Part shown: piece after piece, positions 26,681 to 52,407 of the stretch
How the letters are laid out: the number at the start of each line of letters is the position of its first letter
Position numbering within the stretch: the stretch's first letter is position 1
Assembly: GCA_016190665.1 (NCBI GenBank)
Contig: JACPQD010000028.1
Coordinates: 1 to 64,000, forward strand
Direction: 5' to 3'
Source of the DNA: Chloroflexota bacterium
GTDB taxonomy: Bacteria > Chloroflexota > Dehalococcoidia > JACPQD01
Length of the DNA stretch: 64,000 bases
Translations under genes and position numbers: made by a program
Notes under the pieces: model-generated
What the model saw: only the letters and a program-made list of their open reading frames with translations
Database searches by the model: none
Told to the model about the DNA's origin: nothing

Positions 26681-27250
26681 ACGACTACACAGGCGATCAG
26701 TGGAAAACTAGTGCTGCTGAACCCGGTGGGATACGTCGCGGCGTCGGAGGCGAGCGTTGCGCCGCGCGTGAATGACCTGAATGGGAAAGCAGTCGGCTTC
26801 CTCTTTAACGGACATTGGGCGACGCCGGTCCTGTTCCAGGCGGTCAGGGAGAGCTTGATCGAACGCTTCAGGCTCTCGGGGGTCGTAGACAAACTCAAAC
26901 CTAAGGTGGGAGCGGCGTCCCCAGCGGAGCACATAGACGACGTAGCGTCCAGGTGCGACCTGGCTGTCCTTGGCGTTGGCGCCTGAGGGTCTTGCACCTC
27001 CGGCGTGGTCCGGGATGCGGCGGCCCTGGAGAAAAGAGGTATTCCGACCGTTACCCTGGTGCACGACAAGTTCGTGCCTGCGGCTCGCGCCCAGGCGAAG
27101 GTCCTCGGGCTTCCCTCACTTCAGATAGCATCGGTGCCCCAGCCTATGCCCTGGGAGACGGAAGAGGATGAGCGTAGGAAAGGCAGCGCAGTCATCGAGA
27201 CCGTTGTGGCCATGTTGACCAAGCCTCGGCCCCCGGCCGTTGAAGCCTGA
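26681..27250 (+). CDS. UGSC-family selenoprotein 1 (in-frame TGA at 26984)
   Basis: About 189 residues, with selenocysteine at codon 102 encoded by TGA 26984-26986 in the motif VLGVGA-U-GSCTS. The frame is open on both sides, and the downstream part (VVRDAAALEKRGIPTVTLVH) matches the other copies, so termination at TGA is unlikely to be the real end. A perfect AGGAGG (26669-26674) lies six bases before ACG 26681, whose frame gives TTQAISGKLVLLNPVG; the first standard start is GTG 26711, with no good site. I use ACG as the likely start. It sits 33 bases before an SBP. The U-x-x-C pair suggests thiol/selenol redox chemistry; the substrate is unknown. Confidence 0.87.
26984..27014 (+). promoter_or_regulatory. 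Sec codon and SECIS-like hairpin of selenoprotein 1
   Basis: TGA 26984-26986, then stem CCGG (27000-27003)/CCGG (27010-27013) with a closing T-G pair and loop CGTGGT. The loop starts 18 bases after TGA and has G second. It is the weakest stem of the four. Confidence 0.65.
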
Positions 27251-27283
27251 CGATGTGTTGACAAACCCTGACGGAGGCCCATA

Positions 27284-29038
27284 ATGACTAACCCGCGAAA
27301 GGGAGTTCCCGTAGCGTCCGGTAAGAAGTCTGGCATCGCTGCAGGTTGCCTCATACTGGCTCTGCTGGTGACAGCCTGCGCGCCGGCGACGCAGCCGACG
27401 CCCACTGCCAAGCCTGTGGCGCCGCCGGCTCCGGCGGCGACGAAGGCCGCGGCTCCAACTCCAGCTTCGCCATCAACCCCAAAACCGGCGGCCCCCAGCC
27501 CCACATCCAAGCCCGCTGCCGATTCCGCCGGAGGCGCACGCGGCGGCACCTTGACCATCGGCGTGGGCGGTGACCCACCCAGCTTCGACATCCATCAAGA
27601 GCAAACAGCCTACGTCTTCGCGATCACGGCAGGGACCTATAGCGGCCTGGTAAGATATGATTCCCAGGCGTGGCCCCAATCGAAGGTCATCGGCGACCTT
27701 GCTGCAAGCTGGTCCGTAGGCACTGATGGCAAGGTCTATACCTACAGTCTGGTGAAGGGGGCGAAGTTTCACGATGGCGCTCCTGTCACCGCTGAGGACG
27801 TCAAATTCTCTCTCGACAGGATCCGTGACCCTCAACTGGGCCTGGTGCGAAGCCCAAGGCGTTTGCAGCTGGCCGCCATCAGCGGCATCGAAACTCCGGA
27901 CGATTCGACCGTCAAGATCAATCTGAAATATCCGCAGGCTTCCTTTAACCCAGCCATAGCCACCGTCTTCTACGCAATGATGCCCAAGCGTGTAGTCCAG
28001 GCCAACAACAACGACATGAGGAAGACCATCCTTGGCAGCGGCCCCTTCAAGCTGAAGAGCTACTCCAGCGGCGTAGGATGGGAGCTGGCGAGGAACTCGG
28101 ACTATTTCGTTAAGGACCGACCCTACCTGGATAGCGTGAAAGCCTACATAATCCCTGACACCTTCACCAGATTTGCGGCCCTCAGGACCAGAAGCGTCCT
28201 GTGGTTTGCGCCCTTCCCTTATATGACCGTTTCCCACGCGAAAATCATTGAAGAGTCGCTGTCGGACAAGATAGCCGTTAAGTGGGCATTCCATCCTGCC
28301 TGGTACGCCGCCGTTTTTAACGTGAATCAAGCGCCGTGGAGCGATGTTCGGGTGCGTCAGGCGGTAAGTCTGGCCTTCGACCGGAAGAAAATGCTCGCCG
28401 CTGGACTGGAAGGGGCCGGCGTTGTTGGCATGTCGCCCATGCCGCCAGGGGAGTGGGCGCTTCCGGAGGAAGAGATGATGAAGATGCCCGGCTATGCGCG
28501 GCCAGACATTGAAGCTGCCAGGAGGCTGCTGGCTGAGGCGGGCTACCCTGCCGGATTCAAAGCTGACCTGATTGTCCGGCAAGTGAAACCGCACCAGGAT
28601 TTCGCCGTGGTGTTGAAGGACGCCCTCGCGTCTCTGGGTATCGAGCTTACGCTCAACGTAATGGAGACGGCGACGTTCGAAAGCACGCGGTTCCGGAAAG
28701 CCTTCGGTATTCTGGCCACCGGCGCCGGCACCCCGGTCATGGACCCGGACACGCAGCTGGGCGACAACTATTTGTCCGGCGCCACCAACAACTGGAGCGG
28801 ATACAATGACCCGGCTTTCGATGAGCTTTTCACCAAGCAGTCGGGAACTCTTGATGCCGGGGAGCGGCGCAAGATTGTCTGGGAGATGCAGAGGGTCCTT
28901 CTGAGGGACACACCTATGGCGCTGGCCTACTGGACCAACGTCGCTTACGCCTGGTGGAAAGAAGTCAGGGGATTTACTCCTCCCACAAGCCTGTACGATG
29001 CTTACGGCGGATATCATGAGATGCGGATCGCCAAGTAG
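27284..29038 (+). CDS. ABC substrate-binding lipoprotein, family 5 (UGSC-linked)
   Basis: A 584-residue SBP. A 17-residue N-terminal stretch precedes the hydrophobic core; the lipobox is LVTAC (C32). After the Ala/Pro tether the domain opens GGTLTIGVGGDPPSFDIHQE. The C-terminus lacks the usual VWLA motif and reads GGYHEMRIAK. Its closest relative is the SBP at 62044 (shared WAFHPAWY, SDVRVRQAVSL, GLEGAGVVGMS, PPGEWALPEEEMMK), and that gene also lies beside a UGSC gene. ATG behind CGGAGG. It sits within the compact run 25568-31878. Confidence 0.92.
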   Translation: MTNPRKGVPVASGKKSGIAAGCLILALLVTACAPATQPTPTAKPVAPPAPAATKAAAPTPASPSTPKPAAPSPTSKPAADSAGGARGGTLTIGVGGDPPSFDIHQEQTAYVFAITAGTYSGLVRYDSQAWPQSKVIGDLAASWSVGTDGKVYTYSLVKGAKFHDGAPVTAEDVKFSLDRIRDPQLGLVRSPRRLQLAAISGIETPDDSTVKINLKYPQASFNPAIATVFYAMMPKRVVQANNNDMRKTILGSGPFKLKSYSSGVGWELARNSDYFVKDRPYLDSVKAYIIPDTFTRFAALRTRSVLWFAPFPYMTVSHAKIIEESLSDKIAVKWAFHPAWYAAVFNVNQAPWSDVRVRQAVSLAFDRKKMLAAGLEGAGVVGMSPMPPGEWALPEEEMMKMPGYARPDIEAARRLLAEAGYPAGFKADLIVRQVKPHQDFAVVLKDALASLGIELTLNVMETATFESTRFRKAFGILATGAGTPVMDPDTQLGDNYLSGATNNWSGYNDPAFDELFTKQSGTLDAGERRKIVWEMQRVLLRDTPMALAYWTNVAYAWWKEVRGFTPPTSLYDAYGGYHEMRIAK

Positions 29039-29054
29039 AGGAACGGAGCAATAC

Positions 29055-30113
29055 ATGACAGCAAAGCTGGCCGTCCTGGGCACAGGGGCCATAGGATCGA
29101 GCATAGGAGCGGACCTGGCCAGGGCCGCATACGATGTGATACTCATCGATCAGTGGCCGGCCCATGTGGACGCCATGAAGGCCGACGGTCTCCACGTCAC
29201 CATGAGAGGAGAGGAATCCCACATACCGGTCCGGGCATTTCACCTTTGCGAGATGAAGGATGCCCGACAGTGGGCGCTGCACGAGCAACTGGATATCGTC
29301 TTCCTCACGGCCAAAGCCTACGACGCCCCGTGGCTGGCGGAGTTCATCAAGCCCTTCTTAAAGCCAGATGGAGTGCTTGTCTCTGTGCAGAATAGCCTCA
29401 TGGATGAATGGATCGCCCCCATAGTCGGCCGCCAGCGGGATATCGGGTGCGCTTTCATGCTCTCCGCAGATGTGTTCGAACCGGGGCGAGTCAACCGCAA
29501 CACTAACCAGATCGAGACGAAGTTCGTGCTGGGTGACCTGGATGGGAGGATCACACCGCGCCTTGAGGAAGCGGCGCAGATATTGGGCCACGCGGGCCAG
29601 ACGCGGATCACCACCAACATATGGGGCGCCAAGTGGTCCAAGCTAATGTTCAACGGCATGTATGCCACCTTTCGCGGCGCCCTTGGCGCCACCAAACAGG
29701 AGATGCTGGATGACCCGAAAGTGATGGATATGGTCGCCAAACTGGCCGTCGAGGCCGCCCATGTGGCTACCGCCCTCGGATACACTCTGGAGCCCATCCT
29801 GGGACTCACTTCCGAAGATTTGAAGCAACTGACAGAGGACACCTTCAGGAAGTTCATGCTGAAGGTCTTCGGCGATACGGACAGCAAGTCGACCAGCATG
29901 GTCCAGCAGGACATCGCCAAGGGACGACTGACGGAGACAGACCTTATCAACGGGCTGATAGCCCGTAAGGGACAGGAGGCCAACGTGCCTACGCCCGCTA
30001 ATCAGGCGCTGAACGCCGTCATGAGGCAGATAGAGGAGGGAGCGCTCCAGCCGGGCCTCTCCAACCTGCGACTGATTGAGCGGCACATGTCCGGAACTCC
30101 GGCGACAGCCTGA
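29055..30113 (+). CDS. Ketopantoate reductase-family (ApbA/PanE-like) oxidoreductase
   Basis: NAD(P)-dependent reductase fold, 352 residues. The N-terminal Rossmann motif is LAVLGTGAIGSSIGADLARA. Further segments VFLTAKAYDAPWLAEF, VLVSVQNSLMDEW and NIWGAKWSKLMFNGMYATFRG match the family, including the Lys in the helix that binds substrate. It is longer than biosynthetic PanE (about 300), and its place between an SBP (16 bases) and a fused UGSC-like gene (25 bases) suggests reduction of another 2-oxo acid in a catabolic pathway. ATG start behind GGAACGGAG. True ketopantoate activity is possible but less likely. Confidence 0.85.
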   Translation: MTAKLAVLGTGAIGSSIGADLARAAYDVILIDQWPAHVDAMKADGLHVTMRGEESHIPVRAFHLCEMKDARQWALHEQLDIVFLTAKAYDAPWLAEFIKPFLKPDGVLVSVQNSLMDEWIAPIVGRQRDIGCAFMLSADVFEPGRVNRNTNQIETKFVLGDLDGRITPRLEEAAQILGHAGQTRITTNIWGAKWSKLMFNGMYATFRGALGATKQEMLDDPKVMDMVAKLAVEAAHVATALGYTLEPILGLTSEDLKQLTEDTFRKFMLKVFGDTDSKSTSMVQQDIAKGRLTETDLINGLIARKGQEANVPTPANQALNAVMRQIEEGALQPGLSNLRLIERHMSGTPATA

Positions 30114-30138
30114 TCCCTGAAGTAATGAGGGAGGCGAG

Positions 30139-31878
30139 GTGACGGAAGACATCGTCGTGAAGGCAAGACCGGTCCAGGACCCGAGGGGTGAGCCGACCTT
30201 CAAACCGGTGAAGCTGGCGCCCCGCCTGGGCACGCTGAAGAGCAAGAGAATCCTCTTCTTTGACAACGGCAAGCTCAGACCGGAGTTCGGCAACTACGGG
30301 TTCATTACGGATAGGCTTATCGAGCGATTCAGGGGCTCGGGCGTGGGGGAAACTCCGCGCGCCGTGCTGGACTTGCTGGTCTCGACGCCCGATCCGATCG
30401 GGAAGGCGATCTCCCTGTTGCCTGACGATGTCGATGGGGTCGTCCTTGGCCTCGCTGATTCCGGCGTGACTGTGCCGACGGTCCGGCTCGCTGCGGCTCT
30501 CGAAGCTAGGGGAATTCCCACCGCCGTCCTCTGCACCGAAGCCGGCATTGCTCTTGCCGCAGCGATGGCCCAGAGCTATGTGCCTGGCGCGCCGCTTTCC
30601 ACGGTGACCCTAACGCGCGCCGCCACCAGGGAGGAGATGAACCGGCAGGCCGACCATCTCCTGCAGGAAGTCATCGATGGGCTAACGGCGCCCGCGGAAC
30701 GCCTCAAGTTCAGCGCCCAGAAGTGGCTGGCCCCGATGACTCTCAAAAGCGCTGGCGCGGGCGAGCTGGCGCTGGGCGAAAAGACGGTGAAGGCAACGCG
30801 GAAGGGGGGAAAGCTCTGTCTCGAGCTCGACCCGGGCGCCTTTGCCGAGGAGTTCTATGCGGCTTGCTGCGAAAGCAGCCTGTGCGACGGATTCCCCGTG
30901 ATTCCGCCGACGCGAGACCGAGTGCGAGCGACGCTGCGCTTCACAGACCGACCGCCTGAGCACGTTCTGGCCCCGGACCTGACGCCCAGCGGAGCTCCCA
31001 TCACGGTGGAAAAAGCCGCCATCAGCGCGGTCATGGCCGGGTGCCGGCCGGAGTACTTCCCCGTTATCGTCACCGCTTTCGAAGCCATGGCCGATACCCG
31101 GTATCGCCTTCCTCAAGTCCCCATCACCAGCCACCCTTCGGGGAACGCCGTCGTCATCAGCGGACCTCTGGCCAGAGAGCTGGGCATTCACGCCGGCATG
31201 GGATGCCTCGGCCCAGGCTTCAGGGCCAACGCCACCATCGGACGCGCCTTGAACTTGACTCTGATCAACGTCTCCCGCGCCATCCCCGGGCTTTCCGATC
31301 TGGCTACCCAGGGCTCGCCGGCGGAATACTCCTATTGCGCGGCGGAGAACGAGGAGGATAGCCCCTGGCCCGCTTTCCACGCGGAGCTGTACGGTCCGGA
31401 AACGACTTCGGTCACAGTGCATCGCTGTGAAGGGCCTCACAACATAATTGACCACATATCCACGACCCCGGAGAGCCTTCTCACCGGGATAGCGTCGGTG
31501 GCGGCCACACTCGGCGGCAACAACTCTTACGTGCCCGCCGAGCTGCTGGTCTTCCTGAACTCCGAACATGCCAGGATCATCGCCGATGCCGGGTGGAGCA
31601 AGGATGACGTGAAGCTCTTCTTGTACGACAAGGCGCGAAATCCGCGAGAACTGCTCGAGGGGAGAGGGATTGTCTTCGCCAGGCCGGCGTGGATGACCGC
31701 CGCCGCCGAGTTGCCGGTGGTGAGGGGCCCGTGGGAGGTGCTCGTCTTCGTGGTCGGCGGCACCGGACTGCACTCTTCGGTCGGCATCCCCTGGGCCTTT
31801 TCCCAAGCGGTCACCAGGCCGGTCGCCTTCAAGGACGGGCGACCGGTGAAGTCCGTCCAGGAGTTCCTCGAGCGCTAA
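30139..31878 (+). CDS. Fusion of a Sec-less UGSC-like domain with the partner domain
   Basis: A 579-residue protein. Residues about 1-185 match the UGSC family (KLAPRLGTLKSKRILFFDNG, then VVLGLA-DSGV-TVPTVRLAAALEARGIPTAVL). At the place of U-G-S-C it has D107-S-G-V110, so both the selenocysteine and the resolving cysteine are gone. Residues about 230-579 match the partner family (DGFPVIPPT, SAVMAGCRPEYFPVIV, SYCAAENEEDSPWPAFH, GWSKDDVKLFLYDKAR). GTG start behind GGGAGGCG. The fusion is direct evidence that the two families interact. The UGSC part may now be only structural or regulatory. The partner part keeps its conserved Cys. Confidence 0.85.
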   Translation: MTEDIVVKARPVQDPRGEPTFKPVKLAPRLGTLKSKRILFFDNGKLRPEFGNYGFITDRLIERFRGSGVGETPRAVLDLLVSTPDPIGKAISLLPDDVDGVVLGLADSGVTVPTVRLAAALEARGIPTAVLCTEAGIALAAAMAQSYVPGAPLSTVTLTRAATREEMNRQADHLLQEVIDGLTAPAERLKFSAQKWLAPMTLKSAGAGELALGEKTVKATRKGGKLCLELDPGAFAEEFYAACCESSLCDGFPVIPPTRDRVRATLRFTDRPPEHVLAPDLTPSGAPITVEKAAISAVMAGCRPEYFPVIVTAFEAMADTRYRLPQVPITSHPSGNAVVISGPLARELGIHAGMGCLGPGFRANATIGRALNLTLINVSRAIPGLSDLATQGSPAEYSYCAAENEEDSPWPAFHAELYGPETTSVTVHRCEGPHNIIDHISTTPESLLTGIASVAATLGGNNSYVPAELLVFLNSEHARIIADAGWSKDDVKLFLYDKARNPRELLEGRGIVFARPAWMTAAAELPVVRGPWEVLVFVVGGTGLHSSVGIPWAFSQAVTRPVAFKDGRPVKSVQEFLER

Positions 31879-31984
31879 CCTTCAGCGTCCATCAGCCTGT
31901 GGACTCCAGGCTGTTAGCTCATGTGCAGGGAAGGTACGGGCCCAGGATGGTCCGCTACTTCGCTTGCGAAAGTGGTTGATGACA

Positions 31985-32041
31985 ATCTGTAGCGACATCT
32001 GTAGCGACATTCTTGACAAATCCCCAATGTGCAGGTACATT
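31985..32041 (+). promoter_or_regulatory. Promoter with tandem 12-bp direct repeat
   Basis: TTGACA (32013-32018) and TACATT (32036-32041) with a 17-base spacer lie 33 bases upstream of the SBP start. ATCTGTAGCGAC occurs twice in tandem (31985-31996, 31997-32008), ending four bases before the -35 box, where an activator would bind. Confidence 0.7.
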
Positions 32042-32074
32042 TGACTTTAACTTTCCTTACAGGAGGCGATTCAC

Positions 32075-33715: not shown

Positions 33716-33743
33716 GCTCGGCTGCCCCCGCCGAACAGTAAGA

Positions 33744-33787
33744 GGCGAAGGGGCGCGCCCCGATCGGGGCGGGCCCCTTCGCCTTTT
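33744..33787 (+). terminator. Rho-independent terminator
   Basis: Perfect 11-bp stem GGCGAAGGGGC (33744-33754)/GCCCCTTCGCC (33773-33783), with an inner CCCCGATCGGGG palindrome and followed by TTTT, 28 bases after the SBP stop. It ends the 32075 transcript. Confidence 0.9.
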
Positions 33788-33819
33788 GCGGCGCGGAAAA
33801 GGCACGCAAGTACGAGGCG

Positions 33820-33850
33820 TTGACAACCTGCGGGACCCCATAGTAAACTG
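33820..33850 (+). promoter_or_regulatory. Likely promoter of the 33951 SBP
   Basis: TTGACA at 33820-33825 followed by TAGTAAACT at 33841-33849. The spacing from TTGACA to TAGTAAA (15 bases) is the same as at 1843. A conventional -10 would be TAAACT (33845, 19-base spacer), so the assignment is tentative. It follows the terminator directly. Confidence 0.5.
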
Positions 33851-33950
33851 GCGCCGGACAGATTGGACTGCAGCGGGGGCGGCAGCCCGGCAGGCCGGGC
33901 GGTCCGCGTTTTCTCAGCCGGCATGTTAAATCAACAAGGGAGGTCTCACG

Positions 33951-35639: not shown

Positions 35640-37052
35640 ATGGACTACATCACGCGAGAAGAGAAGGAATGGGTCAAAGGAGAGATCGCCAAGCTTCGTA
35701 CTCCGGAGACACTCGTAGAGGGGAAATGGAACGTCAGTCCTCTTAACCGAGACCCTGAGGTTCTGGGCAAGTTCGGTCCGGCGCATTACCCGCCTTCCGT
35801 AATGATTCGCGATGACACGTTGCGAACAATTGAGCAGACTCCCGGAATCTGTCTAAGCGCAGCCGAGCGGCGGCGGCTTGCAGTGGCGCTCGTCGAGGCG
35901 GGCGTCAAGCAGTTGCATACAGCGCTCTTGTATCAGCCAACACAGGGATTGCAGCGAGGCAGCGCGAAGGACTTGCTGACGAGGACATGCGACGCTGCAA
36001 ACAAGGAAGTCGAGTTCATCAAGAGCCTGGACAGCAGCGTGGAAGTGATTGTCGGCGCGAACAACGAGGAAGAAATAGACGCGGTGGCCGACTCGGCTGC
36101 GGAAATCGTTCAACTGTTCCCTCCTGTTAATCCGGCTTTGAATCTCGTTTATGGATGGATCGGACGCCAGATCCAGCGTGCGGCCTGGCGAGGCGAAGAC
36201 TGGCGCAAGACAATCAAGCCACCTTTGACAGTGGAAGAAAACATCTCGTGGATTCAGGGACTCGCGAGCCATGCCCGGAAGAGGGGACTCAGGGTAGCCC
36301 TGGCGACACCGCAGCTATACAATTCAAGTCTGGAGCAGTTCAAGAGGTTGTGTGAAGCAGCCGCGGAGGTGGGAATCGAAGAGATAGGCCTCGGCGACGG
36401 AGCGAGCGCCTTCGGCTATGAGGCGTATGCATACCTGGTTTCCTGCGTGAAAGAATGGGCGCCGGGGATGCGTGTTTGCCTATCGCGACCTTTCAATGCT
36501 TTCGGGCTCGCGATGGCCAAGGCGATCGCTGGCGTGCATGCCGGGGCGGACGTGTTGGAGTGTTCGGTGAATGGCCTGTGTACTGGCGCCGGGCAGGTAG
36601 ACCTCCCCGAGGCGGTGGCGACCCTGGAAGTACTGTATGGCGTCAAGACCGGGATCAAGATGGAGATGCTCACCCCGCTGAAACGCCTCGTGGAAGATAT
36701 GACCCGAGTTCCTATGGCTCAGAGCAAGCCCGTGACCGGCGAGTACGCGTGGACGTACACCGAAGAGGCCAATACGGAGGAGGACGATCTCGGCCTTGGC
36801 TTTCTTCTCCATAAGTGCGTCGATCCGGCGATCTTCGGAAACTCATGGAAGGTGGAACTAGGTCGATACAGCGGGACCTGGACCATGATGCGCAAGTTGC
36901 GGGAGCTCGGGCTGAGCGTAGACCAGAAGCTGGTGCCGGTAATCCTGGACGAGGCGAAGCAGGAGATGGAGCTGAGAAAACGCCTGCTTACCGCGAATGA
37001 TCTTAAGGAAATAGTGAGCAGGGTTCAGGCCAAATCTCGGGAGGCTTCTTAG
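35640..37052 (+). CDS. HMG-CoA lyase/isopropylmalate synthase-like TIM-barrel protein, altered active site
   Basis: A 470-residue member of the DRE-TIM metallolyase superfamily. The first strand reads MIRDDTLRTIEQTPG, a DRE-like start, and the barrel contains EEIGLGDGASAFGYEA. The usual HxH metal-binding motif at the seventh strand (normally H-x-H-N-D-x-G-x-A) is replaced by CLSRPFNAFGLAMAKAIAGV, while the following segment (VLECSVNGLCTGAGQVDLPE) is retained. Standard divalent-metal aldol chemistry is therefore doubtful. ATG 35640 lies behind CCTAGGAGG. It is co-transcribed with the SBP upstream. A new reaction or loss of catalysis are both possible. Confidence 0.78.
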   Translation: MDYITREEKEWVKGEIAKLRTPETLVEGKWNVSPLNRDPEVLGKFGPAHYPPSVMIRDDTLRTIEQTPGICLSAAERRRLAVALVEAGVKQLHTALLYQPTQGLQRGSAKDLLTRTCDAANKEVEFIKSLDSSVEVIVGANNEEEIDAVADSAAEIVQLFPPVNPALNLVYGWIGRQIQRAAWRGEDWRKTIKPPLTVEENISWIQGLASHARKRGLRVALATPQLYNSSLEQFKRLCEAAAEVGIEEIGLGDGASAFGYEAYAYLVSCVKEWAPGMRVCLSRPFNAFGLAMAKAIAGVHAGADVLECSVNGLCTGAGQVDLPEAVATLEVLYGVKTGIKMEMLTPLKRLVEDMTRVPMAQSKPVTGEYAWTYTEEANTEEDDLGLGFLLHKCVDPAIFGNSWKVELGRYSGTWTMMRKLRELGLSVDQKLVPVILDEAKQEMELRKRLLTANDLKEIVSRVQAKSREAS

Positions 37053-37840: not shown

Positions 37841-38434
37841 ATGACTAGTAGCACTGATACGAGTATTGTTCGAATAAAGAAGGCCATCGAACCTGTTTTG
37901 CAGCCGCGAAACATCCCGCCGGAAAGCGGCGGTCCTCAAGACGCCAGGTTGGCACCCAGGTTGCGCTCTCTGGAGGGCGCCAGGATAGGCTTTTACAACA
38001 ATCGAAAACCTTTTGCCGCCAACGCGTTACCAGCGGTCGAGCGGGTCTTGAAAGAGAAAGGCGTGAGAGACATATTTGTGGGTTGGTCAACTACCTCGAA
38101 TAAGCCCCCTGACGAGACGCTTGACAGCCTCGCCCAGGCTGATGCAGTCGTCCTCGCAGGGGCGGACTGAGGGGCCTGCACCTCTTGGCTGCTGTACGCA
38201 GCCATGGAACTGGAGAAGAGGGGGGTACCCACGCTTTCAATTGCCGCCACCAACTTCGTGCCCACCGTGCGATCGACAGCAAAACGCAGAGGATTCGATG
38301 ATCTGCGTTTTATCGAAATCAAGGAGCCTGTAGTTGACCGGCAGAACGTGGAGAAGCAGATCTTTGCACAAGCGCAAGAACTAGAGACAGCGCTAGTAGG
38401 CAGTCCTCCGCGTCCCAAGGCAGTACCAGCTTAA
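37841..38434 (+). CDS. UGSC-family selenoprotein 2, U-G-A-C variant (in-frame TGA at 38168)
   Basis: A 197-residue protein with Sec at codon 110 (TGA 38168-38170) in AVVLAGAD-U-GACTS. Before it come LAPRLRSLEGARIGFYNNRK (fold start) and VLKEKGVRDIFVGW; after it WLLYAAMELEKRGVPTLSIA continues in the same frame and matches the paralogues. The third motif position is Ala rather than Ser, while the Cys three residues after Sec is kept. ATG 37841 is behind TTGGAGG. The partner gene follows after 113 bases. Conventional gene callers would split this into two short ORFs. Confidence 0.9.
38168..38204 (+). promoter_or_regulatory. Sec codon and SECIS-like hairpin of selenoprotein 2
   Basis: TGA 38168-38170; perfect 7-bp stem TGGCTGC (38186-38192)/GCAGCCA (38198-38204) with loop TGTAC. 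The loop starts 23 bases after TGA and has G second. Confidence 0.78.
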
Positions 38435-43675: not shown

Positions 43676-44254
43676 ATGGAATCGACCGTAAAGCTTGTAT
43701 TCCCCCGAGCGGAGCAGCATCGAGACCGCCCGAAGGTGAAGGGCGAACGGAGGCTGACTGACCTTGAGCAAAAGGTGATTGCCTTCGTGGATGATGGCCG
43801 GCCTAATGCTGGGATAGCTCTAGGGAGCATTAGAGAAGAAATGATGAGGGCATTCAGCATCCAGCCGGTGATTATCGAACATCGTAGCCTCGGATTGGCG
43901 GCTGCCGACCCTCTCCCCCCTGCTGTCTTTCAGCAACTGTGTAGCGAGGTGGACGCAGTCGTGGTCGGAATAGCGTCTTGAGGCGGCTGCACCGGGCGGA
44001 GTGTCCGCCACGTCGCCGACTTCATCCGGCAAGGCATCCCGGCAGTTGTGCTGGCAGCACCCACGTGGGAGCATGCGGCCAAGACCATTGCCCGGTCCAT
44101 CGAGGTTCGCGAGTCGCAAGTTATCGCTCTACCCCTGGGTGAGGCTTTCGCGGACAGTCCAGAGGGGGCGCAGCGCATGCGAGAGACGGCACACGAAGTC
44201 GTCCCACTAATTGTGGAGGCGTTGCAGGGGACTCATCCCATTCCGGCACGCTGA
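43676..44254 (+). CDS. UGSC-family selenoprotein 3, U-G-G-C variant (in-frame TGA at 43979)
   Basis: A 192-residue protein with Sec at codon 102 (TGA 43979-43981) in AVVVGIAS-U-GGCTG. The upstream half holds KVIAFVDDGRPNAGIALGSI and the conserved CSEVDAVVVGIA strand; the downstream half RSVRHVADFIRQGIPAVVLA continues in frame. The third motif position is Gly. The second half is more diverged from the family than in copies 1 and 2. ATG behind AAAAAGGAGGG. It sits between the SBP pair and the partner gene (51 bases). Confidence 0.88.
43979..44009 (+). promoter_or_regulatory. Sec codon and SECIS-like hairpin of selenoprotein 3
   Basis: TGA 43979-43981; stem GGCGG (43995-43999)/CCGCC (44005-44009) with loop AGTGT, which can close to a sixth A-T pair. 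The loop starts 19 bases after TGA with G second. Confidence 0.72.
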
Positions 44255-45364: not shown

Positions 45365-45468
45365 AGAGCCGGAACGGCTGGAAGATGAAGGTGACCATGT
45401 GAAGCTGAGACCGTTGAGCCAGCGCGTGTATTTCCTGCAAGGCGAGATCGAGCCCGAGCGTTAGTCCG

Positions 45469-45762
45469 CTCTCGATCTTCGGTGACCGCTACGTGTCCGG
45501 TGGAGGAAGAAACTACGAAGGCGTTTCTGACTCGCGCATCGATGCCCTCTATCATGAGGCGGCGCGCACCTTGGACATGGAGCAACGCAAGAAGATGTTC
45601 TGGGAGGCGGAGAGAATCCTGAGGGAGGATATCGTTCCAGTGGCCCCATTGTTCTGGCCCAGCAAATACAGCGGCTATTGGCAAGAAGTGAAAGGCTACG
45701 CCGGGATAGGGCTGGGTTACTTCGAAGGCCACAGTATGGAAGAGGTGTGGCTGGACAAATAG
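45469..45762 (+). pseudogene. Remnant of an SBP gene (C-terminal ~97 residues)
   Basis: The frame reads LSIFGDRYVSGGGRNYEGVS, then LYHEAARTLDMEQRKKMFWE and GHSMEEVWLDK, the standard last fifth of a family 5 SBP. The frame is still clean, so loss of the rest may be recent. The stretch 45365-45468 before it shows one short coding-like frame (GDHVKLRPLSQRVYFLQGEI) that I cannot assign. Confidence 0.8.
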
Positions 45763-45867
45763 AACCGAGTGGGAGATGCCCGCCGGCTCGCTCCCGGGCC
45801 GCCGGAGTTCCCCCTTGGTTCTGCGGTAGGCTTCGAAGGCGTTTCCCTGGGGCTCTTGCTTGGGCAA

Positions 45868-46968: not shown

Positions 46969-47147
46969 TTTCGCCTCTCGAATCTCGTCTTCCGTGACCA
47001 GAACATCTTTGCCTTCGAGACGATAAGCGACTGCTCCGCTCTTCGACTCGTCCAGCGTAGTCTGCGAGACGCCCTCAGACTCCGTTTTGCGTCACTCATG
47101 GCCTACCCTATCTAGATGATGACTTCTCTCGGCCATGATATCGCTAG

Positions 47148-47177
47148 ACTATACTGCCTACCCTGTGGGCTTGTCAA
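47148..47177 (-). promoter_or_regulatory. Promoter of the 2-hydroxyacid dehydrogenase
   Basis: On the minus strand TTGACA (47177-47172), an 18-base spacer and TATAGT (47153-47148). It lies about 180 bases upstream of the annotated start, which leaves room for an N-terminal extension or a leader. Confidence 0.65.
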
Positions 47178-47393
47178 CAAGATCGGCACCTGACAGGCGA
47201 ATCTGCGGAAAAGAGTAAAGCATGATAGGCTCGACTTACATCCCACGGGGGTCACTAAGGGTGCTCAGCGTGTCGTGCGGACCGCTGCGGCCTCAGTTCG
47301 CTGCCGCATCCAGGGTTTCGGTATTCAGGTCCGGAGCGCAGCCTTGGCAACGGCAGTCGCCTGCTGGAGCGTCCACGTCACGATCACAACCTG

Positions 47394-47422
47394 TTGACAC
47401 GCCTCTTTCTGCGCTGTATATT
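47394..47422 (+). promoter_or_regulatory. Promoter of the MmgE/PrpD gene
   Basis: TTGACA (47394-47399), 17-base spacer, TATATT (47417-47422), 71 bases before the ATG. Apart from this and the divergent promoter, the 46969-47492 gap shows no gene. Confidence 0.8.
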
Positions 47423-47492
47423 GACGCCGGGCCCCCGATAGGGCGAGCCGGCTGCAGCTGATTCCCCCGGAGATTCTGGCAAGGAGATATCG

Positions 47493-48869
47493 ATGACGCT
47501 AGAGGAGCAACTCGTCGGACACTTGCGGGGCACGTCCTTCCTGGACCTGCCTGGAGAGGCGGTTGATGCTGCGCGACGAGAAGTGCTGTGGAATCTCGGC
47601 ACCTCGGTTGCCGGAGCCGGTGCACCCGGTTCCCGGGAGATAATGACCTTTGTCCGCCAGGCGGGCGGGCGCGAGGAGGCGACGGTCGTAGGTTTTGGGG
47701 ACCGTGTCCCCGCGAATCTGGCGGGGCTGGCCAACGGTACTTTCGGCAAGGCCCTCGAATATGAAGACAAGTTCTGGATCGGTGAGGACCACGGCTTCGG
47801 CATCGGAATGTCAGTGGTGCCAGCAGCCTTCGCCGTCGCGGAGCACCTGGGCCGTGTGGATGGAAAGGCGCTGCTGCGGGCTGTGGCTCTAGCGACCGAC
47901 ATTGAGGGCCGCATGATCATCGCCACCAAGGCCGGGCCAGGCTCGGTCACTCCCGGATGGAATGTTGGTTCAACCCTGTCCGCACTGGGAGCATCCATGG
48001 TGGCGGGCGCGCTGATGGGCTTGAGCGAAGAGCAACTCCTCAACGCCATGGGACTTGCCTATGCCCAGACCACGGGCAGCTACCAGGCGTTTCGGGAGAG
48101 AGTGCTTGCGGTGCGAATGCAAACAGGCTTCGGGGTGCGCAACGGCATAACTGCGGCCCAGCTGGCGAGAGCCGGCGTAACCGGCCCCAAGCTCTTTCTG
48201 ACGGGGCAGTTCGGCCTTTACCGTCTGTTCTTCATGGTCGACGAGCCTGATACGGCAACCATGACCCAGGATCTGGGGCGGCAGTTCCTCGGCACGCGCC
48301 TCGGTTTCAAGGCGTATCCATGCGGAGCTGTGGCGCACCCGGTTCTCGACGCTATCCTATCGCTTATGGATCAGCATAACCCTCCACTGGAGTCGATTGA
48401 ACAGGTCTGTATCCACGGGACGAGCTGGCTCTACATCATGGTCGAGCCCCGGGAACTCAAGCAGAATCCGCAAAGCCATGTCGACTCCGAATTCAGTCTC
48501 CCTTGGGCCGTGGCCTGCGCCATCGTCGACCGCAAACTGTCTCCCGCCCACTTTCGCGATGAGGCCTTGAAGGATGGGAGGTATGTGCAGGTAGCCCGAA
48601 AGGTGGAAACCTTCATGGATCGGGACTGGGGCGCCTACGCCGAGATTCGACTGCGGGATGGCCGTACTCTGCGCTCCGTGACGGTTCGGGCGGCGAAAGG
48701 GCATCCTGACAACCCCCAAACGACGGAGGAGTTGGTTGAGCGCTACCGGGAATGCGTGAAGCTGGGTCCAAAGCCATTGATGGAAGAGCGGACAGAGGAG
48801 GCTAAGGACCTCGTGCTCCGGCTGCAGGAGGCGCCGGACGTTTCAAAGGTGATGAAGCTCCTCTCATAG
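47493..48869 (+). CDS. MmgE/PrpD family protein (2-methylcitrate dehydratase-like)
   Basis: A 458-residue protein with the all-alpha N-terminal part and alpha/beta C-terminal part of the MmgE/PrpD family, which includes 2-methylcitrate and cis-aconitate-type dehydratases/decarboxylases. Recognisable pieces: GLANGTFGKALEYEDKFWIG (the family normally has A-x-x-H-x-x-D-x-D-D here), GLAYAQTTGSYQAFRE, and FKAYPCGAVAHPVLDAIL. The H/D-rich substrate motif is altered to EYEDKFW, so its substrate probably differs from methylcitrate. ATG 47493 behind CAAGGAG. It is followed by an SBP after 60 bases and then by the fused selenoprotein. Confidence 0.87.
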   Translation: MTLEEQLVGHLRGTSFLDLPGEAVDAARREVLWNLGTSVAGAGAPGSREIMTFVRQAGGREEATVVGFGDRVPANLAGLANGTFGKALEYEDKFWIGEDHGFGIGMSVVPAAFAVAEHLGRVDGKALLRAVALATDIEGRMIIATKAGPGSVTPGWNVGSTLSALGASMVAGALMGLSEEQLLNAMGLAYAQTTGSYQAFRERVLAVRMQTGFGVRNGITAAQLARAGVTGPKLFLTGQFGLYRLFFMVDEPDTATMTQDLGRQFLGTRLGFKAYPCGAVAHPVLDAILSLMDQHNPPLESIEQVCIHGTSWLYIMVEPRELKQNPQSHVDSEFSLPWAVACAIVDRKLSPAHFRDEALKDGRYVQVARKVETFMDRDWGAYAEIRLRDGRTLRSVTVRAAKGHPDNPQTTEELVERYRECVKLGPKPLMEERTEEAKDLVLRLQEAPDVSKVMKLLS

Positions 48870-48929
48870 TACAGGACAGATGTGCGGTTCTTTTTCAGGC
48901 CGCTGTTTTGACGCGAAGGGAGATCACGA

Positions 48930-50594
48930 ATGCGAACGAAGAGGCTGCTTGCGCTGAGTTGCTGCGCGATTATTGGATTCGCTCCGGCGAGTTGCGCCCA
49001 GGCGGTTCTTCCCGCATCCACAATAGCGCCTCACAAGGCGGAAGCTCCCGTGCCCAAACCGGTTGCCGCCCCAACGGCGTCATCCACTACGCCAAGTCCT
49101 GTGGCCTCCTCCGCCACACCTGTTGGCGCAGTACAGCCGAAGTACGGCGGCTCCGTCACCCGGATCAGAGACAAGTACCCTGACATGCTGGACCCTCACC
49201 TCATGCGAGGCGCTGGCGCGGCCAACGACGTTCTTGGGCCACTGTACAACGCCCTCTTCATGCTGGACGATAAGATGGAGATAGTCCCGGACCTGGTTGA
49301 AAAATGGGAGCAGCCAAGCGACGTCGCATATGTGCTGCATCTGCGGCAAGACATAAGATTCCATGACAATCCCACGATGAAGGGACGTCAGTTCACCGCT
49401 GAGGACGTTAAGTATAGCATCCAGCGTATGGCAACGGATGATCCGAAATTCTTCAATCGTTGGAAATTCGAGGTTGTTACAAATATTGAAGTGCTCGACA
49501 TCCGAACCGTCAAGCTTACACTCAGGGAACCGGCGGCGCCCTTCATGTATTTCATGGCGCAGCCCACCAACTACATGGTAGGCAGGGAGGCCGTAGAGAA
49601 GTTCGGCGATCTCGCGCGGGAAGAGGCAGGGACCGGTCCTTTCTATTTGAAAAGCTGGACGGAGAAGGTCAGCTACAAGCTGGCGAAGAATCCCAACTAC
49701 TTCGTCAAAGGCATACCCTATTTCAATGAGGTGAACGTGGTGTTCGTACCGGATCCTGCCAGCCGGCTGGCCGCTTTCCGCTCGGGCAGGGCGGACTATA
49801 CACAGGTCTCCTTTACAGACCTCGGCGCCCTGAAGCGAACGAATCCTGGTATCACCTCCGCGAGCTTACCCACCGATCAGGTCTTCATGGCCTTTCATCC
49901 CAATAAGAGTCCTTTCAACGACCAGCGTGTCCGCCGGGCGTTTTCGCTGGCTATCGATCGTCAGGCGTTGATCGACGTGGTGATGGAGGGACAGGCGGAA
50001 CTGGCTGGCCCTATCTATGGCGTTGCCGCTTCCTGGCGGTTGCCTGTCGACGAAGTGAAGCGTCTCTACCGGCCGGACGTTGCTCAGGCCAGAAAGCTTA
50101 TGGCCGATGCCGGTTATCCCGGCGGCTTCCCGCTCGATGTCAAGGTCAGCTCCAGCAGGAAGGACAGCCTGGAGAGCATAACCGTCGTGGCGCAGCAACT
50201 GAAGCAAATCGGCGTTGAAATCAAGCAGCAGACCCTGGAGCACACTACGATGCTGGCCCAGCGCAACGCCGCCGATTATGTGGCGCTGCTTCACGGCGGC
50301 AATGCGACCATCGAGCCGGGCGAGCGGATAGAGCAGTATTGGCGTCCTGGAGGTATGTATCACTTGAAGGACGAGGACCTGGCCAATCTGATCGACGAGC
50401 AACGGCGGACAGTTGACGCGGACAAGAGACGCCTCATCCTGAACCAGTTTGAAAGGCTCTGGATAGAAAGGGCCTACGCCTTGATGCTTTTCGGGTACGG
50501 CGAGCACATAGTTCGCCAGCCGCACATCAAAGGGCCTCATCAGGCGTCGGTTATCGGCCAGCATATGGTAGCGTATAACTGGAGCGACAGGTAG
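48930..50594 (+). CDS. ABC substrate-binding lipoprotein, family 5 (most divergent)
   Basis: A 554-residue SBP with lipobox APASC (C22) and two extra cysteines in the signal peptide (C11, C12). The domain starts YGGSVTRIRDKYPDMLDPHL, without the HQE motif, and the end GQHMVAYNWSDR lacks the VWLA motif. It contains an insert NPTMKGRQFTAEDVKYSIQR seen in peptide-type SBPs from other bacteria. ATG behind AAGGGAG. It stands between PrpD and the fused selenoprotein, which may use the same substrate. Confidence 0.9.
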   Translation: MRTKRLLALSCCAIIGFAPASCAQAVLPASTIAPHKAEAPVPKPVAAPTASSTTPSPVASSATPVGAVQPKYGGSVTRIRDKYPDMLDPHLMRGAGAANDVLGPLYNALFMLDDKMEIVPDLVEKWEQPSDVAYVLHLRQDIRFHDNPTMKGRQFTAEDVKYSIQRMATDDPKFFNRWKFEVVTNIEVLDIRTVKLTLREPAAPFMYFMAQPTNYMVGREAVEKFGDLAREEAGTGPFYLKSWTEKVSYKLAKNPNYFVKGIPYFNEVNVVFVPDPASRLAAFRSGRADYTQVSFTDLGALKRTNPGITSASLPTDQVFMAFHPNKSPFNDQRVRRAFSLAIDRQALIDVVMEGQAELAGPIYGVAASWRLPVDEVKRLYRPDVAQARKLMADAGYPGGFPLDVKVSSSRKDSLESITVVAQQLKQIGVEIKQQTLEHTTMLAQRNAADYVALLHGGNATIEPGERIEQYWRPGGMYHLKDEDLANLIDEQRRTVDADKRRLILNQFERLWIERAYALMLFGYGEHIVRQPHIKGPHQASVIGQHMVAYNWSDR

Positions 50595-50682
50595 CCTACA
50601 AAGGAGAACCTGTTGGACCAGAAGGGCTTCTGCGTCCTGGCGCCCAGTGAAGCTGATACGGCTGACAAGGAGAATGAGAATT

Positions 50683-52407
50683 GTGAGCGAACCCGTCTAC
50701 AAGGTGGTTTGGCCACTGGGCGCGTCTGTGTACAGTCCACAAGCGACCGCTCGAGAGGTCATGGACCTGAGGGGCAAGACAGTCTGCCAACTGTGGAACT
50801 GGAGCTTTCGGGGCAATGAGATATTCCCCGCCGTGGTGGAGATTCTCTCCAAACGTTATCCGGGCATCAAAGTCGTCCACCACGACGTCTTTGGGAACAT
50901 CCATAGTCCCAAGGAGAGAGAGGTTGTCGCACACCTTCCTGAGTTGCTCCGTGACCAGGGCTGTGACGCGGTTATCTCGGGTGTTGGCGCCTGAGGCAGT
51001 TGCACGCCCGCCGTGGTGCGGGCAAGCGCTGTTGCCGAGAAGGCCGGGGTGCGCAGCGTATCGCTTGTATCGTCGGGTTTTGTGCGACAGGCTCATGCCA
51101 TCGCCAAAGCGTTGGGAGTAGAGAACCTCTCAATAGCCGAATACCCCGGCGTTCCCATGATCGACAGTCCGGAGCAACTGCTTGATAAGGTAGAACAAGT
51201 CCTGGTCACGAGAATCGTCGACGGCCTGAGCGCCCCGGCAAAGGAGGGGAGTAGACCGTGCGAACCGCAACCCAGGGATGTCGTTTACAAGGGGACGCTG
51301 GATGGGGTGCAAGACTTCTTTTATCGTAACATGTGGACGGAAGGGCTGCCGGTCATCCCGCCGACGATCGCCAGGGTGGAGGAATTCCTGACATTCACCG
51401 AGCGCTTCGGAGACGAAGTCATTGGCGTTCTCCTGCCCGAGAACCGACAGGCCACTGTCTGGAACGTTGCCGTCAACGGTGTGATGGCTGGTTGTCGACC
51501 AGAGTACATGCCGCTGCTGCTGGCAGTAGTGGAGGCCATCTCCGACCCGGAGTTCCGCATTGAGGACGCGGGCAGCACTCCCGGGTGGGAGCCGCTCATC
51601 ATCCTGAACGGCCCTATTATCAGGCAACTGGATTTCAACTGCGGCTCCGGCGTGATGCGGGTCGGCCGGCAGGCCAATACGACTGTCGGCCGGTTTCTGC
51701 GATTGTACATGCGAAACGTAGCTGGTCTCCGCATCCCGCCGGGGGACACTGACAAGGGGAGTATTTGCCAGACGTTCAACGTGGCGCTCGCTGAGAACGA
51801 AGATGCCGTCGAGAAGGCTGGCTGGCGGCCTTTCAGTGTGGATCGAGGGTTCAACGCCGGCGACAACATCGTGACTGTTCAAAGCTGCATCAGCATAAGT
51901 CCGCCCTGCTACAGCGGGGGGACCACACCGCAGGAGCACATGGAGACTATCACTGAGATCATTGGACGCCGGTCCGTAGTCTACTGGGTGGGCATCGGCG
52001 CCAAAGAGGGCAAAATGCACGTGTTGCTTGTGCTGAGCCCGAGCGTGGCCGAAGTGATAGCACAGGGCGGCTGGACCAAGGATGATGTGCGCCAATACCT
52101 TTATGAGAATGCGAAGGCGCCTGCCGGGCTGGTGGAGAAGCTGACTCGTCAGGCAGGCCCTTCCACGTTCACCCTGTGCAGGTTCGTTGAAGAAGGGTTG
52201 ATATCGAAGGAGTTCTGCCGATCGGACGATCCTCACAGGTTGGTGCCCATTATCCTGAGGCCGGACTTCGTCGAAATCGTCGTCAGCGGCGACCCCGGCA
52301 GGAACCAGAGCAAAGGATATGTGCAGAACCAGAAACAGGGGCCGCCGATCAGCAAAAGGATAGTTCTGCCGCCCAATTGGGAGCGGATGATCGAAGAGGT
52401 CCGCTGA
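50683..52407 (+). CDS. Selenoprotein 4: UGSC domain fused to the partner domain (in-frame TGA at 50992)
   Basis: A 574-residue protein read through TGA 50992-50994 (Sec at codon 104) in AVISGVGA-U-GSCTP. Residues 1-190 are the UGSC domain, with VVRASAVAEKAGVRSVSLVS after Sec; residues about 210-574 are the partner domain (WTEGLPVIPPTIARVEEFL, NGVMAGCRPEYMPLLLAVVE, GWTKDDVRQYLYENAKAPAG). In the YC-x-AEN block the Cys is replaced (NVALAENED). I choose GTG 50683 because AAGGAG lies ten bases before it. If Sec is not inserted, the partner domain is not made either. A vestigial AAGGAGGGG at 51241, between the domains, may be the old ribosome site of a once separate partner gene. Confidence 0.88.
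50992..51023 (+). promoter_or_regulatory. Sec codon and SECIS-like hairpin of selenoprotein 4
   Basis: TGA 50992-50994; perfect 6-bp stem GCCCGC (51006-51011)/GCGGGC (51018-51023) with loop CGTGGT. The loop starts 18 bases after TGA and is identical in sequence to that of selenoprotein 1. Confidence 0.78.

Follow-up and report, generated by a model that had tools for sequence, protein, structure and literature searches.

A large family of predicted UGSC selenoproteins with a near-constant partner domain in a Chloroflexota bacterium

The reductases with PrdB or GrdB are two-part enzymes with a selenocysteine (Sec) subunit, and Sec itself is usually regarded as costly and rare. The UGSC family of selenoproteins, including a fusion with an additional domain named "Unknown_1", was described in the 2008 GOS survey; across all GOS data, 255 UGSC sequences had Sec and 21 had Cys, and the family was grouped there with the thioredoxin-like redox selenoproteins (PMC2398784). 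The top of the bacterial selenoproteome range is placed at 57 and 63 genes in a 2026 review (PMC13188914), belonging to the Olavius algarvensis delta-1 symbiont and a Methylomirabilota MAG, respectively, with 46 genes in Desulfosediminicola flagellatus (PMC13188914, PMC12013277). For SAR202, a group of Chloroflexota, paralog expansions of catabolic enzymes were proposed (PMC6946804, PMC10444878); the words "selenium" and "selenoprotein" are absent from the main text of one of these papers (PMC6946804).

UGSC genes and their neighbourhood

We analysed a stretch of 64,000 nt from a Chloroflexota bacterium, probably a member of the class Dehalococcoidia, in the following called the window, in which the initial annotation had proposed four UGSC-type genes, each interrupted by a TGA codon. 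All four TGA codons were recovered at the given positions (26984, 38168, 43979 and 50992), and they are followed in frame by codons for G-S-C, G-A-C, G-G-C and G-S-C, as claimed, placing the predicted Sec at the first position of a U-G-x-C motif in every case. The proposed homology on both sides of the TGA was borne out as well, as the PF24696 match of each read-through frame spans the codon, with scores above the gathering cut-off of 25 bits. The cluster and its surroundings comprise the following features:

25523..26638, + strand: partner gene 1, about 370 aa, upstream of UGSC-1; partner profile 397.6 bits
26711..27250, + strand: predicted UGSC-1 gene, 179 aa, Sec at TGA 26984-26986; PF24696 152.4 bits
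27284..29038, + strand: SBP_bac_5 solute-binding lipoprotein; PF00496 255.8 bits
28998..30113, + strand: ketopantoate reductase-like dehydrogenase; PF02558/PF08546
30139..31878, + strand: degenerate fused UGSC and partner domains (fifth copy); PF24696 41.2 bits, partner profile 309.1 bits
32075..33715, + strand: SBP_bac_5 solute-binding lipoprotein; PF00496
33951..35618, + strand: SBP_bac_5 solute-binding lipoprotein; PF00496, stop codon TGA
35640..37052, + strand: HMGL-like protein (isopropylmalate/homocitrate synthase superfamily); PF00682, NCBIfam below cut-offs
37841..38434, + strand: predicted UGSC-2 gene, 197 aa, Sec at TGA 38168-38170 (U-G-A-C); PF24696 118.1 bits
38548..39756, + strand: partner gene 2, downstream of UGSC-2; partner profile 392.9 bits
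39995..41692, + strand: SBP_bac_5 solute-binding lipoprotein; PF00496
41963..43642, + strand: SBP_bac_5 solute-binding lipoprotein; PF00496
43676..44254, + strand: predicted UGSC-3 gene, Sec at TGA 43979-43981 (U-G-G-C); PF24696 74.7 bits
44306..45364, + strand: partner gene 3, downstream of UGSC-3; partner profile 397.3 bits
45868..46968, − strand: D-isomer 2-hydroxyacid dehydrogenase; PF02826 188.5 bits
47493..48869, + strand: MmgE/PrpD family protein; PF03972/PF19305
48930..50594, + strand: SBP_bac_5 solute-binding lipoprotein; PF00496
50647..52407, + strand: predicted UGSC-4 gene, UGSC domain fused to a partner domain, Sec at TGA 50992-50994; PF24696 101.6 bits
63790..64000, + strand: start of a sixth UGSC gene, truncated by the window end

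The count of four holds for the genes named in the initial annotation, and further UGSC domains lie at 30139-31878 and from about 63790. The former is without Sec, as S-G-V-T replaces U-G-x-C and there is no in-frame TGA; the latter was covered by two matches with one TGA (63799-64299 and 63790-64278), the longer of which extends to contig position 64299, beyond the window. The start codon of UGSC-1 is uncertain; the listed ORF begins at GTG 26711, and the start at 26681 given earlier was not confirmed. Its apparent stop is TGA 27248-27250, and that of UGSC-4 is TGA 52405-52407. UGSC-3 would comprise 192 aa, with a putative stop at TGA 44252-44254.

The solute-binding lipoproteins deserve a separate remark. 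An embedding of the UGSC genes among transport lipoproteins had been suggested, and the two do share common regions; a special closeness to single UGSC genes was not detected, with 57 of 80 in the UGSC-rich regions versus a rotation mean of 55.2.

The family, its partner domain and a proposed reaction

Across the 5.0-Mb assembly, our own profile, run over all fetched places, identified 178 UGSC domains on 48 contigs; two assembly searches had returned at least 150 UGSC matches each and at least 177 distinct ones together. UGA is present within a U-G-x-C/U motif in 172 of the 178 domains (69 UGSC, 36 UGGC, 35 UGAC, 25 UGTC, 4 UGNC and one each of UGLC, UGDC and UGTU). None of the six copies lacking it has Cys at the Sec site; two have Cys one residue before.

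The claim that every UGSC gene of the cluster has a partner gene was confirmed with a clean profile, one partner lying upstream, two downstream and one being fused (467.7 bits for the partner portion of 50647-52407). In the wider set, a partner was located on the same strand no more than 600 nt away for 78 of 81 UGSC domains; of the other three, two are truncated at a stretch end. Partner gene 1 had no Pfam match at E up to 0.01, and partner gene 2 none in Pfam or NCBIfam. Structure models (pLDDT 84.7 for partner gene 3; pLDDT 87.7 and pTM 0.88 for UGSC-4 with AlphaFold2) were obtained, and the best structural match of the partner was a class I fumarate hydratase, a weak one (E 3.9e-4, TM 0.29).

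Profile comparison by hhalign points to a distant relationship between the UGSC domain and the Sec subunit of D-proline/glycine reductase. When compared with 24 sequences of the PF07355 family from the class, the UGSC profile reached a probability of 90.4 (E 1.4e-6) with Sec aligned on Sec, versus at most 0.6 in 20 column-shuffled controls; the probability was 47.0 when only two sequences were used. The four UGSC proteins gave no direct PF07355 match, PF24696 being the sole family reported at E up to 0.01.

We propose, as the best explanation of the whole and with a probability of about 0.6, that the UGSC set would form an array of substrate-specific Sec reductases, in which the UGSC domain and the partner domain of about 370 residues act together, fused or from adjacent genes. 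How such an enzyme might work can be outlined tentatively, at somewhat less than even odds for the scheme in its entirety. The partner domain would hold a small organic substrate, one bond of which is attacked by the selenolate; the resulting Se-bound intermediate would be resolved by the cysteine of U-x-x-C, with electrons supplied by a thiol or flavin donor. The substrate bound by the partner would differ between paralogs. Substrates may be gathered by the solute-binding lipoproteins, and products may enter central metabolism via the neighbouring dehydrogenases, CoA transferases and MmgE/PrpD-type enzymes.

An alternative is that UGSC proteins are general thiol/selenol redox (thioredoxin-like) or detoxifying proteins, their copy number reflecting dosage or stress protection, which would correspond to the thioredoxin-like grouping in the literature (PMC2398784) and to U-x-x-C as a redox-type motif. 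We consider this unlikely: the Sec copies are strongly diverged, unlike a dosage array (median nucleotide identity to the nearest neighbour 0.73 over 300 nt for the 172 copies), and the large near-constant partner and the catabolic neighbours misfit a general reductant. Moreover, the best Foldseek matches of the UGSC model were flavodoxin-like/azoreductase structures (E 1.7e-4, TM by target up to 0.49), with no thioredoxin chain among the best 50 of 1482 matches.

Copy number and decoding of UGA

The assembly is a MAG of 107 contigs with 96.55% completeness and 6.13% estimated contamination, and for the 63-gene record a caution on strain mixing was raised in the review (PMC13188914). An inflation of the UGSC count by related strains or species mixed into the assembly is nevertheless very improbable, as many copies share single contigs (25 on the 350-kb contig C99, 21 on the 359-kb contig C9, 13 and 10 on others) and near-identical copies are rare: two of the 172, which form one pair, exceed 0.90 identity to their neighbour, and no copy exceeds 0.95. 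In tetranucleotide profile, 20 UGSC-rich stretches agree more closely with 11 others from the assembly (mean r 0.742, versus 0.770 among those 11) than with stretches from four relatives (0.281-0.631). The 178 diverged paralogs, 172 of them with predicted Sec, very probably belong to one organism.

The Sec machinery, proposed earlier as a check, was recovered in part: selA (568.1 bits), selB (353 bits) and selD (385.9 bits), the latter Sec-encoding, with an in-frame TGA of its own, are present in the same assembly. The initial annotation had named absence of all this machinery, together with reassigned TGA or products ending at it, as evidence against Sec, and the three genes speak otherwise. 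The tRNA-Sec gene (selC) was not found in the 96.55% complete assembly, either by Rfam (the best match, 43.1 bits, is a tRNA-Ser) or with a model trained on 15 relatives, and this is the main gap in the evidence for Sec. It leaves some room for UGA being decoded as another amino acid, for instance Cys via a tRNA-Cys with UCA anticodon, or for general reassignment. We regard both as highly improbable, given selA, selB and the Sec-type selD, the tRNA-Sec match of at least 63 bits in 25 of 40 class relatives, and the use of UGA as a stop in 118 of 362 surveyed genes of at least 200 aa (62/231 and 56/131, by simple ORF calls) and apparently in three of the four window UGSC genes, too.

Another amino acid is likewise disfavoured by hairpins behind the UGA, whose shape matches that published for bacterial SECIS elements. 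In the window, these are:

26998..27014, + strand: SECIS-like hairpin of UGSC-1; z −0.92 alone
38186..38204, + strand: hairpin behind the UGSC-2 TGA, 7 bp with a 5-nt loop; z −1.21
43995..44009, + strand: SECIS-like hairpin of UGSC-3; z −2.50
51006..51023, + strand: SECIS-like hairpin of UGSC-4, 6 bp with a 6-nt loop; z −0.93 alone

One by one these four are weak, a point against our explanation, and the signal lies in the family. A stem of at least 5 Watson-Crick bp with its apex at +20 to +22 behind the UGA occurs in 129 of the 172 Sec copies (mean 10.5, maximum 20 in 500 sets of synonymous-codon shuffles). The published bSECIS geometry was found in 142 (shuffles: mean 32.0, maximum 47 among 200 sets), leaving 30 outside the 5-bp rule. 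The folding excess had a mean z of −0.99 at offset 0 versus −0.32 to +0.21 at five other offsets.

Substitutions relative to the nearest copy numbered 718/624/1640 by codon position before the TGA and 1261/913/3389 behind it (117 comparisons, not independent). Third positions change most on both sides, and together with a TGA at the site in 172 of 178 copies this is more than chance. Decay of the genes, with translation ending at the UGA, as conventional ORFs do, and the downstream part an untranslated relic or separate ORF, can practically be dismissed, as differences behind the UGA fall mainly on third positions and as decayed genes would be expected to carry further stops and frameshifts, whereas exactly one TGA is found in 169 of 178 domains, none in 6 and two in 3. 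Homology across the codon, the family's SECIS-like hairpins and selA/selB/selD strongly support Sec at the four TGA codons; the four frames are almost certainly UGSC selenoprotein genes, in which UGA is predicted to specify Sec by means of a hairpin some 20 nt downstream, and elsewhere to act as a stop.

Comparison with known systems

That a single bacterium runs about 172 different Sec reductases, each pairing a UGSC domain with a partner that holds the substrate, and uses them as a combinatorial array for catabolism is a possibility that we put at roughly one in three. If true, the array would be a new branch of proline/glycine reductase bond breaking, spread over many substrates that are gathered by solute-binding lipoproteins of similar number. 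It would also constitute the largest selenoproteome known and, to our knowledge, the first case of Sec as a bulk rather than a rare catalytic tool, altering the picture of a costly residue and prompting one to ask how a single SelB/tRNA system can supply so many mRNAs. Its link to PrdB/GrdB provides the unassigned aquatic UGSC family with an enzyme hypothesis that can be tested. The 178 natural variants, six of which lost Sec, offer ready material for studying SECIS rules and the need for Sec.

The cluster had been called an undescribed system. This does not apply to the family and its fusion, known since 2008; in the published accounts we found no description of the 178-copy scale, the near-constant partner or the remote homology to the proline/glycine reductase Sec subunit. 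The genes belong to the UGSC family (PF24696; NF041046; GOS survey) by a match to the same Pfam family above cut-off and the same U-G-x-C site, and we infer that Unknown_1 of the 2008 fusion is the partner domain found here. All four window copies score below the equivalog cut-off of NF041046 ("UGSC family (seleno)protein", 125 bits), with 105.9, 91.8, 53.8 and 55.9 bits, as does the fused fifth copy (26.9 bits). In contrast to the GOS sequences, 172 Sec copies occur in one assembly, with no Cys at the site and the partner in 78 of 81 cases.

The selenoproteomes of Olavius delta-1, Methylomirabilota and Desulfosediminicola reportedly consist of many families with few copies each, whereas here about 172 predicted Sec genes of one family would, if confirmed, stand in one genome beside selD and two PrdB-like genes, far above the 63 genes of the largest published set that we found. 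SAR202, for which a paralog expansion of catabolic enzymes was proposed, is from the same phylum, the expanded families there being flavin monooxygenases and enolases. Compared with PrdB/GrdB (PF07355, TIGR04483; D-proline, glycine, sarcosine and betaine reductases), to which the UGSC domain bears remote profile similarity, the partner is unrelated by profile to the other reductase subunit (PF09338; probability 0.17 against four proteins), and U-G-x-C takes the place of the U-P-x-C found in most of the 24 PF07355-family sequences of the class. In both, Sec and the glycine of G-I-P-T-V-like segments share the same 18-residue spacing.

The UGSC genes and their selenocysteine signature

The initial annotation had described four frames in the window, each interrupted by a TGA with homology on both sides and codons for G-(S/A/G)-C behind it. 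This description was confirmed for all four genes, UGSC-1 to UGSC-4, as a match to the Pfam family PF24696 spans each TGA. The claim that every one of them has a partner also held: a clean profile for this domain of about 370 residues, derived from alignment A7, located it in a separate neighbouring gene for UGSC-1, -2 and -3 (upstream once, downstream twice) and fused to the UGSC domain in UGSC-4.

UGSC genes of the window (U, selenocysteine, Sec)
26711-27250: UGSC-1, TGA at 26984, U-G-S-C; frame unbroken if TGA is Sec
37841-38434: UGSC-2, TGA at 38168, U-G-A-C; frame unbroken if TGA is Sec
43676-44254: UGSC-3, TGA at 43979, U-G-G-C; frame unbroken if TGA is Sec
50647-52407: UGSC-4, TGA at 50992, U-G-S-C; partner fused; frame unbroken if TGA is Sec
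30139-31878: fifth UGSC-partner fusion, without TGA, S-G-V-T at the site

To read these TGA codons as Sec, we relied on the 172 TGA-containing contexts of the family throughout the assembly. Between copies and their nearest copies (117 comparisons at ≥0.70 identity, not independent of each other), differences at codon positions 1, 2 and 3 numbered 718, 624 and 1640 in the 90 nt before the TGA and 1261, 913 and 3389 in the 207 nt behind it. This third-position excess on either side indicates that both sides are translated in a single frame, and gene decay was rejected because the differences behind the TGA fall mostly on third positions. A Watson-Crick stem of at least 5 pairs whose apex falls at +20 to +22 was present in 129 of the 172 contexts (synonymous redraws: mean 10.5, maximum 20 in 500 sets). 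The published bSECIS geometry (loop of 3-9 nt with a G at its first or second position, 16-37 nt from the UGA; PMC13188914) was found in 142 of 172, vs a mean of 32.0 and a maximum of 47 in 200 synonymous sets. Folding compared with synonymous shuffles gave a mean z of -0.99 at offset 0 and of -0.32, 0.04, 0.21, -0.01 and 0.01 at other offsets, and an earlier run on 98 contexts, from which those <450 nt were left out, gave the same picture for hairpins. The individual z values of UGSC-1 to UGSC-4 are weak (-0.92, -1.21, -2.50 and -0.93), so the SECIS case for the window genes rests on the family. In the hairpin registers, pairs had changed on both sides (as many as 16 of 94 for a single pair), with little variation at most pairs of the second register. 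These counts are partly circular, as sequences were pre-sorted by stem presence (151/172), and the SECIS claim therefore rests on the shuffle test of all 172 contexts.

A general reassignment of UGA was rejected, since UGA also ends genes and selA, selB and selD are present. In simple ORF calls (window and stretches L046-L065 and L137-L146), UGA served as stop for 62 of the 231 genes of at least 200 aa in UGSC-rich stretches and for 56 of the 131 such genes in other stretches. It also terminates 9 of the 74 solute-binding protein genes whose match reaches both ends. TAG was the commonest stop (128/231, 59/131 and 55/74, respectively). We do not claim this preference as an effect of Sec through UGA avoidance, because TAG is common in relatives too (46-53% in three, with 10 to 49 genes each, and 13% in a fourth).

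A family expansion across the assembly

The four-gene cluster is a slice of a larger expansion of the UGSC family. The assembly comprises 4,998,043 bases on 107 contigs (96.55% complete, 6.13% contaminated), over which PF24696 gave at least 150 matches, every one above the cut-off; a query alignment of low-scoring members gave a second list of at least 150. Merged, they represent at least 177 places on 48 contigs, six without TGA, with 25, 21, 13 and 10 copies on the richest contigs. Our own profile detected 80 domains in 21 fetched stretches including the window, 79 of them already among the 177 places. After fetching all listed places and removing overlapping duplicates, we counted 178 distinct domains, a total that may be slightly too low, as the unfetched parts of the assembly were covered via the best 150 matches per query. 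U-G-x-C or U-G-x-U occurs in 172 of these domains (169 with one TGA, three with two). One copy (L064, contig C101, match at 30937) reads U-G-T-U, with two in-frame TGA codons within the motif.

The Sec-less copies lie at 30139-31878 in the window and at C81:7298, C62:25418, C58:14994, C20:14091 and C101:25288. Judging from the residues at the six sites (S-G-V-T, A-G-V-T, S-G-V-W, G-G-S-N and twice S-G-V-Y), Sec gave way to residues other than Cys, and the second Cys was lost as well; by eye, a Cys stands one residue ahead of the site in two copies. These paralogs may serve in regulation or as scaffolds.

The search for Sec machinery recovered selB (353 bits) and selA (568.1 bits) on contig C84 and selD (385.9 bits), which itself has one in-frame TGA (...SAAGUAAKLG...), but not the tRNA-Sec gene selC. 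Neither Rfam nor a model from 15 tRNA-Sec genes of the class found selC among the best 150 candidates over the assembly, the same tRNA-Ser place ranking first in both (43.1 bits with Rfam). On the selA/selB stretch, ARAGORN detected none and an Rfam E-value search returned three matches far below the family gathering scores; in the window, ARAGORN detected no tRNA and nothing reached an Rfam gathering score. A tRNA-Sec match of ≥63 bits was listed for 25 of 40 relatives from the class. We assume that selC is missing from the assembly. The selenoprotein reading is strongly supported by the family SECIS signal and by selA, selB and selD, with selC outstanding. Beside selA, we observed a long near-perfect inverted repeat (L046, 18878-18933), which matched only microRNA and snoRNA families, far below their cut-offs. 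Together with two PrdB-like Sec genes at C9:215280 (L095) and C71:101721 (L096), with the motifs U-P-V-C and U-P-L-C, and selD, the 172 UGSC domains bring the predicted Sec genes to at least 175.

A mixture of strains was rejected on the divergence between copies, the copies per contig and composition. Nearest-copy nucleotide identity over 300 nt had a median of 0.73, exceeding 0.90 in one pair and 0.95 in none. UGSC-rich stretches had a GC content of 0.577-0.635, compared with 0.599 for the stretch with selA and selB; in tetranucleotide profiles they correlated at 0.742 with other assembly stretches vs 0.281-0.631 with four relatives. The best named match of SelA was a Dehalococcoidia MAG (62%), followed by other Chloroflexota (41 loci of 70 candidate stretches), which makes Dehalococcoidia the probable class.

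If it belongs to one organism, this expansion is nearly three times the published selenoproteome record. The largest bacterial selenoproteomes reported number 57 and 63 (PMC13188914), Desulfosediminicola flagellatus has 46 selenoproteins (PMC12013277) and an earlier record stood at 39 (PMC9312934). The initial suggestion of an undescribed system applies in part: the UGSC family and its fusion to a domain Unknown_1 were already described (PMC2398784). Among the titles and abstract openings listed for UGSC and the largest selenoproteomes, or for selenoproteins of Chloroflexota/SAR202/Dehalococcoidia, Methylomirabilota and groundwater MAGs, none described a comparable expansion; other papers could contain one.

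Within the class, 94 of 294 genomes, this one included, have PF24696, 83 of them with 1-4 matches each among the matches listed (at most 11 per genome). Scoring all candidates in six other genomes gave 46, 17, 15, 12, 8 and 4 matches; the 46, one below the cut-off, constitute a second large expansion in a 2.7 Mb genome (G027) that belongs to another family within the class. A scan of genome contigs with the UGSC product P0005 returned 17 stretches, none a relative. A tree of the 178 domains and only 20 from relatives (one FastTree run, midpoint rooting, relatives' matches <120 positions left out) implies no fewer than 11 switches from own to relatives' copies or back, with single relatives adjoining own-only groups of 28 and 36. 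Read from this one quick tree, old UGSC subfamilies would have preceded the large expansion.

Partner domains and gene surroundings

The partner domain had no Pfam match at E ≤0.01, and the three separate partner genes of the window had no NCBIfam match. In 20 stretches selected for UGSC density (411,003 bases), we counted 81 UGSC domains (including one truncated at the window edge), 79 partners and 88 solute-binding domains, vs none, none and one in 11 other stretches (219,501 bases). No partner overlapped a lipoprotein. For 78 of the 81 UGSC domains, a same-strand partner lay no more than 600 nt away (73 downstream, five upstream), and two of the three exceptions were at a stretch end. The proposed embedding among transport lipoproteins stood as regional co-occurrence, but not as closeness to single UGSC genes: the count in the UGSC-rich stretches was 57 of 80 vs a rotation mean of 55.2, with 329 of 1000 rotations as high, and tight linkage was rejected.

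Among 87 of 101 unassigned neighbour ORFs (the other 14, judged by eye to be probable shadow ORFs, were excluded), the top families were CoA-transferase III (6), MmgE/PrpD (6), 2-hydroxyacid dehydrogenase (5), flavin oxidoreductase (4), HMGL-like (4) and zinc alcohol dehydrogenase (3). These counts point to carboxylic-acid and carbonyl chemistry. Glycyl-radical enzymes of the pyruvate formate-lyase type made up two of the 87; one such enzyme lies within the UGSC/lipoprotein region of the window (54565-56994). No dipeptide-type ABC permease was among the 25 commonest of the 78 families (L047-L065 and the window), and most of the 88 solute-binding lipoproteins therefore look orphan.

Relation to proline and glycine reductases

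The AlphaFold2 model of UGSC-4 was predicted with confidence (pLDDT 87.7, pTM 0.88) and had flavodoxin-like best PDB matches (E 1.7e-4). The modelled partner alone (pLDDT 84.7) weakly matched class I fumarate hydratase, a resemblance not enough for naming a function. A PDB sequence search with the fused UGSC-partner alignment gave nothing convincing (best E 0.46).

Remote homology was found to PF07355, the family of PrdB and GrdB, the Sec subunits of D-proline and glycine reductases. Against 24 class sequences picked by PF07355 match only (of 31 loci, seven were omitted, L098-L103 and L121, which are full-length GrdB or end fragments), hhalign gave the UGSC profile a probability of 90.4 (E 1.4e-6) with Sec aligned on Sec, and at most 0.6 in 20 column-shuffled controls. 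This set superseded 12 motif-picked PrdB sequences (probability 88.4), and all 24 contain U-x-x-C. In the sequences displayed, UGSC and PrdB/GrdB share Sec-x-x-C, as well as a G-I-P-T-V-like segment whose glycine lies 18 residues behind Sec.

In PrdB/GrdB, Sec is the nucleophile, and the substrate that it attacks is held by another, pyruvoyl-bearing subunit. The UGSC partner differs from that subunit in its profile, and homology to PrdA/GrdE was rejected after a negative profile comparison. From the remote PrdB/GrdB homology and the unrelated partner we infer, as a testable proposal, that UGSC proteins may be reductases that cleave bonds reductively, with possible roles for the lipoproteins and neighbour enzymes. 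The UGSC domain would perform Sec chemistry of the PrdB/GrdB kind, another substrate-holding partner would take the place of the pyruvoyl-bearing subunit, and the UGSC-partner pairs would have diversified over many substrates.
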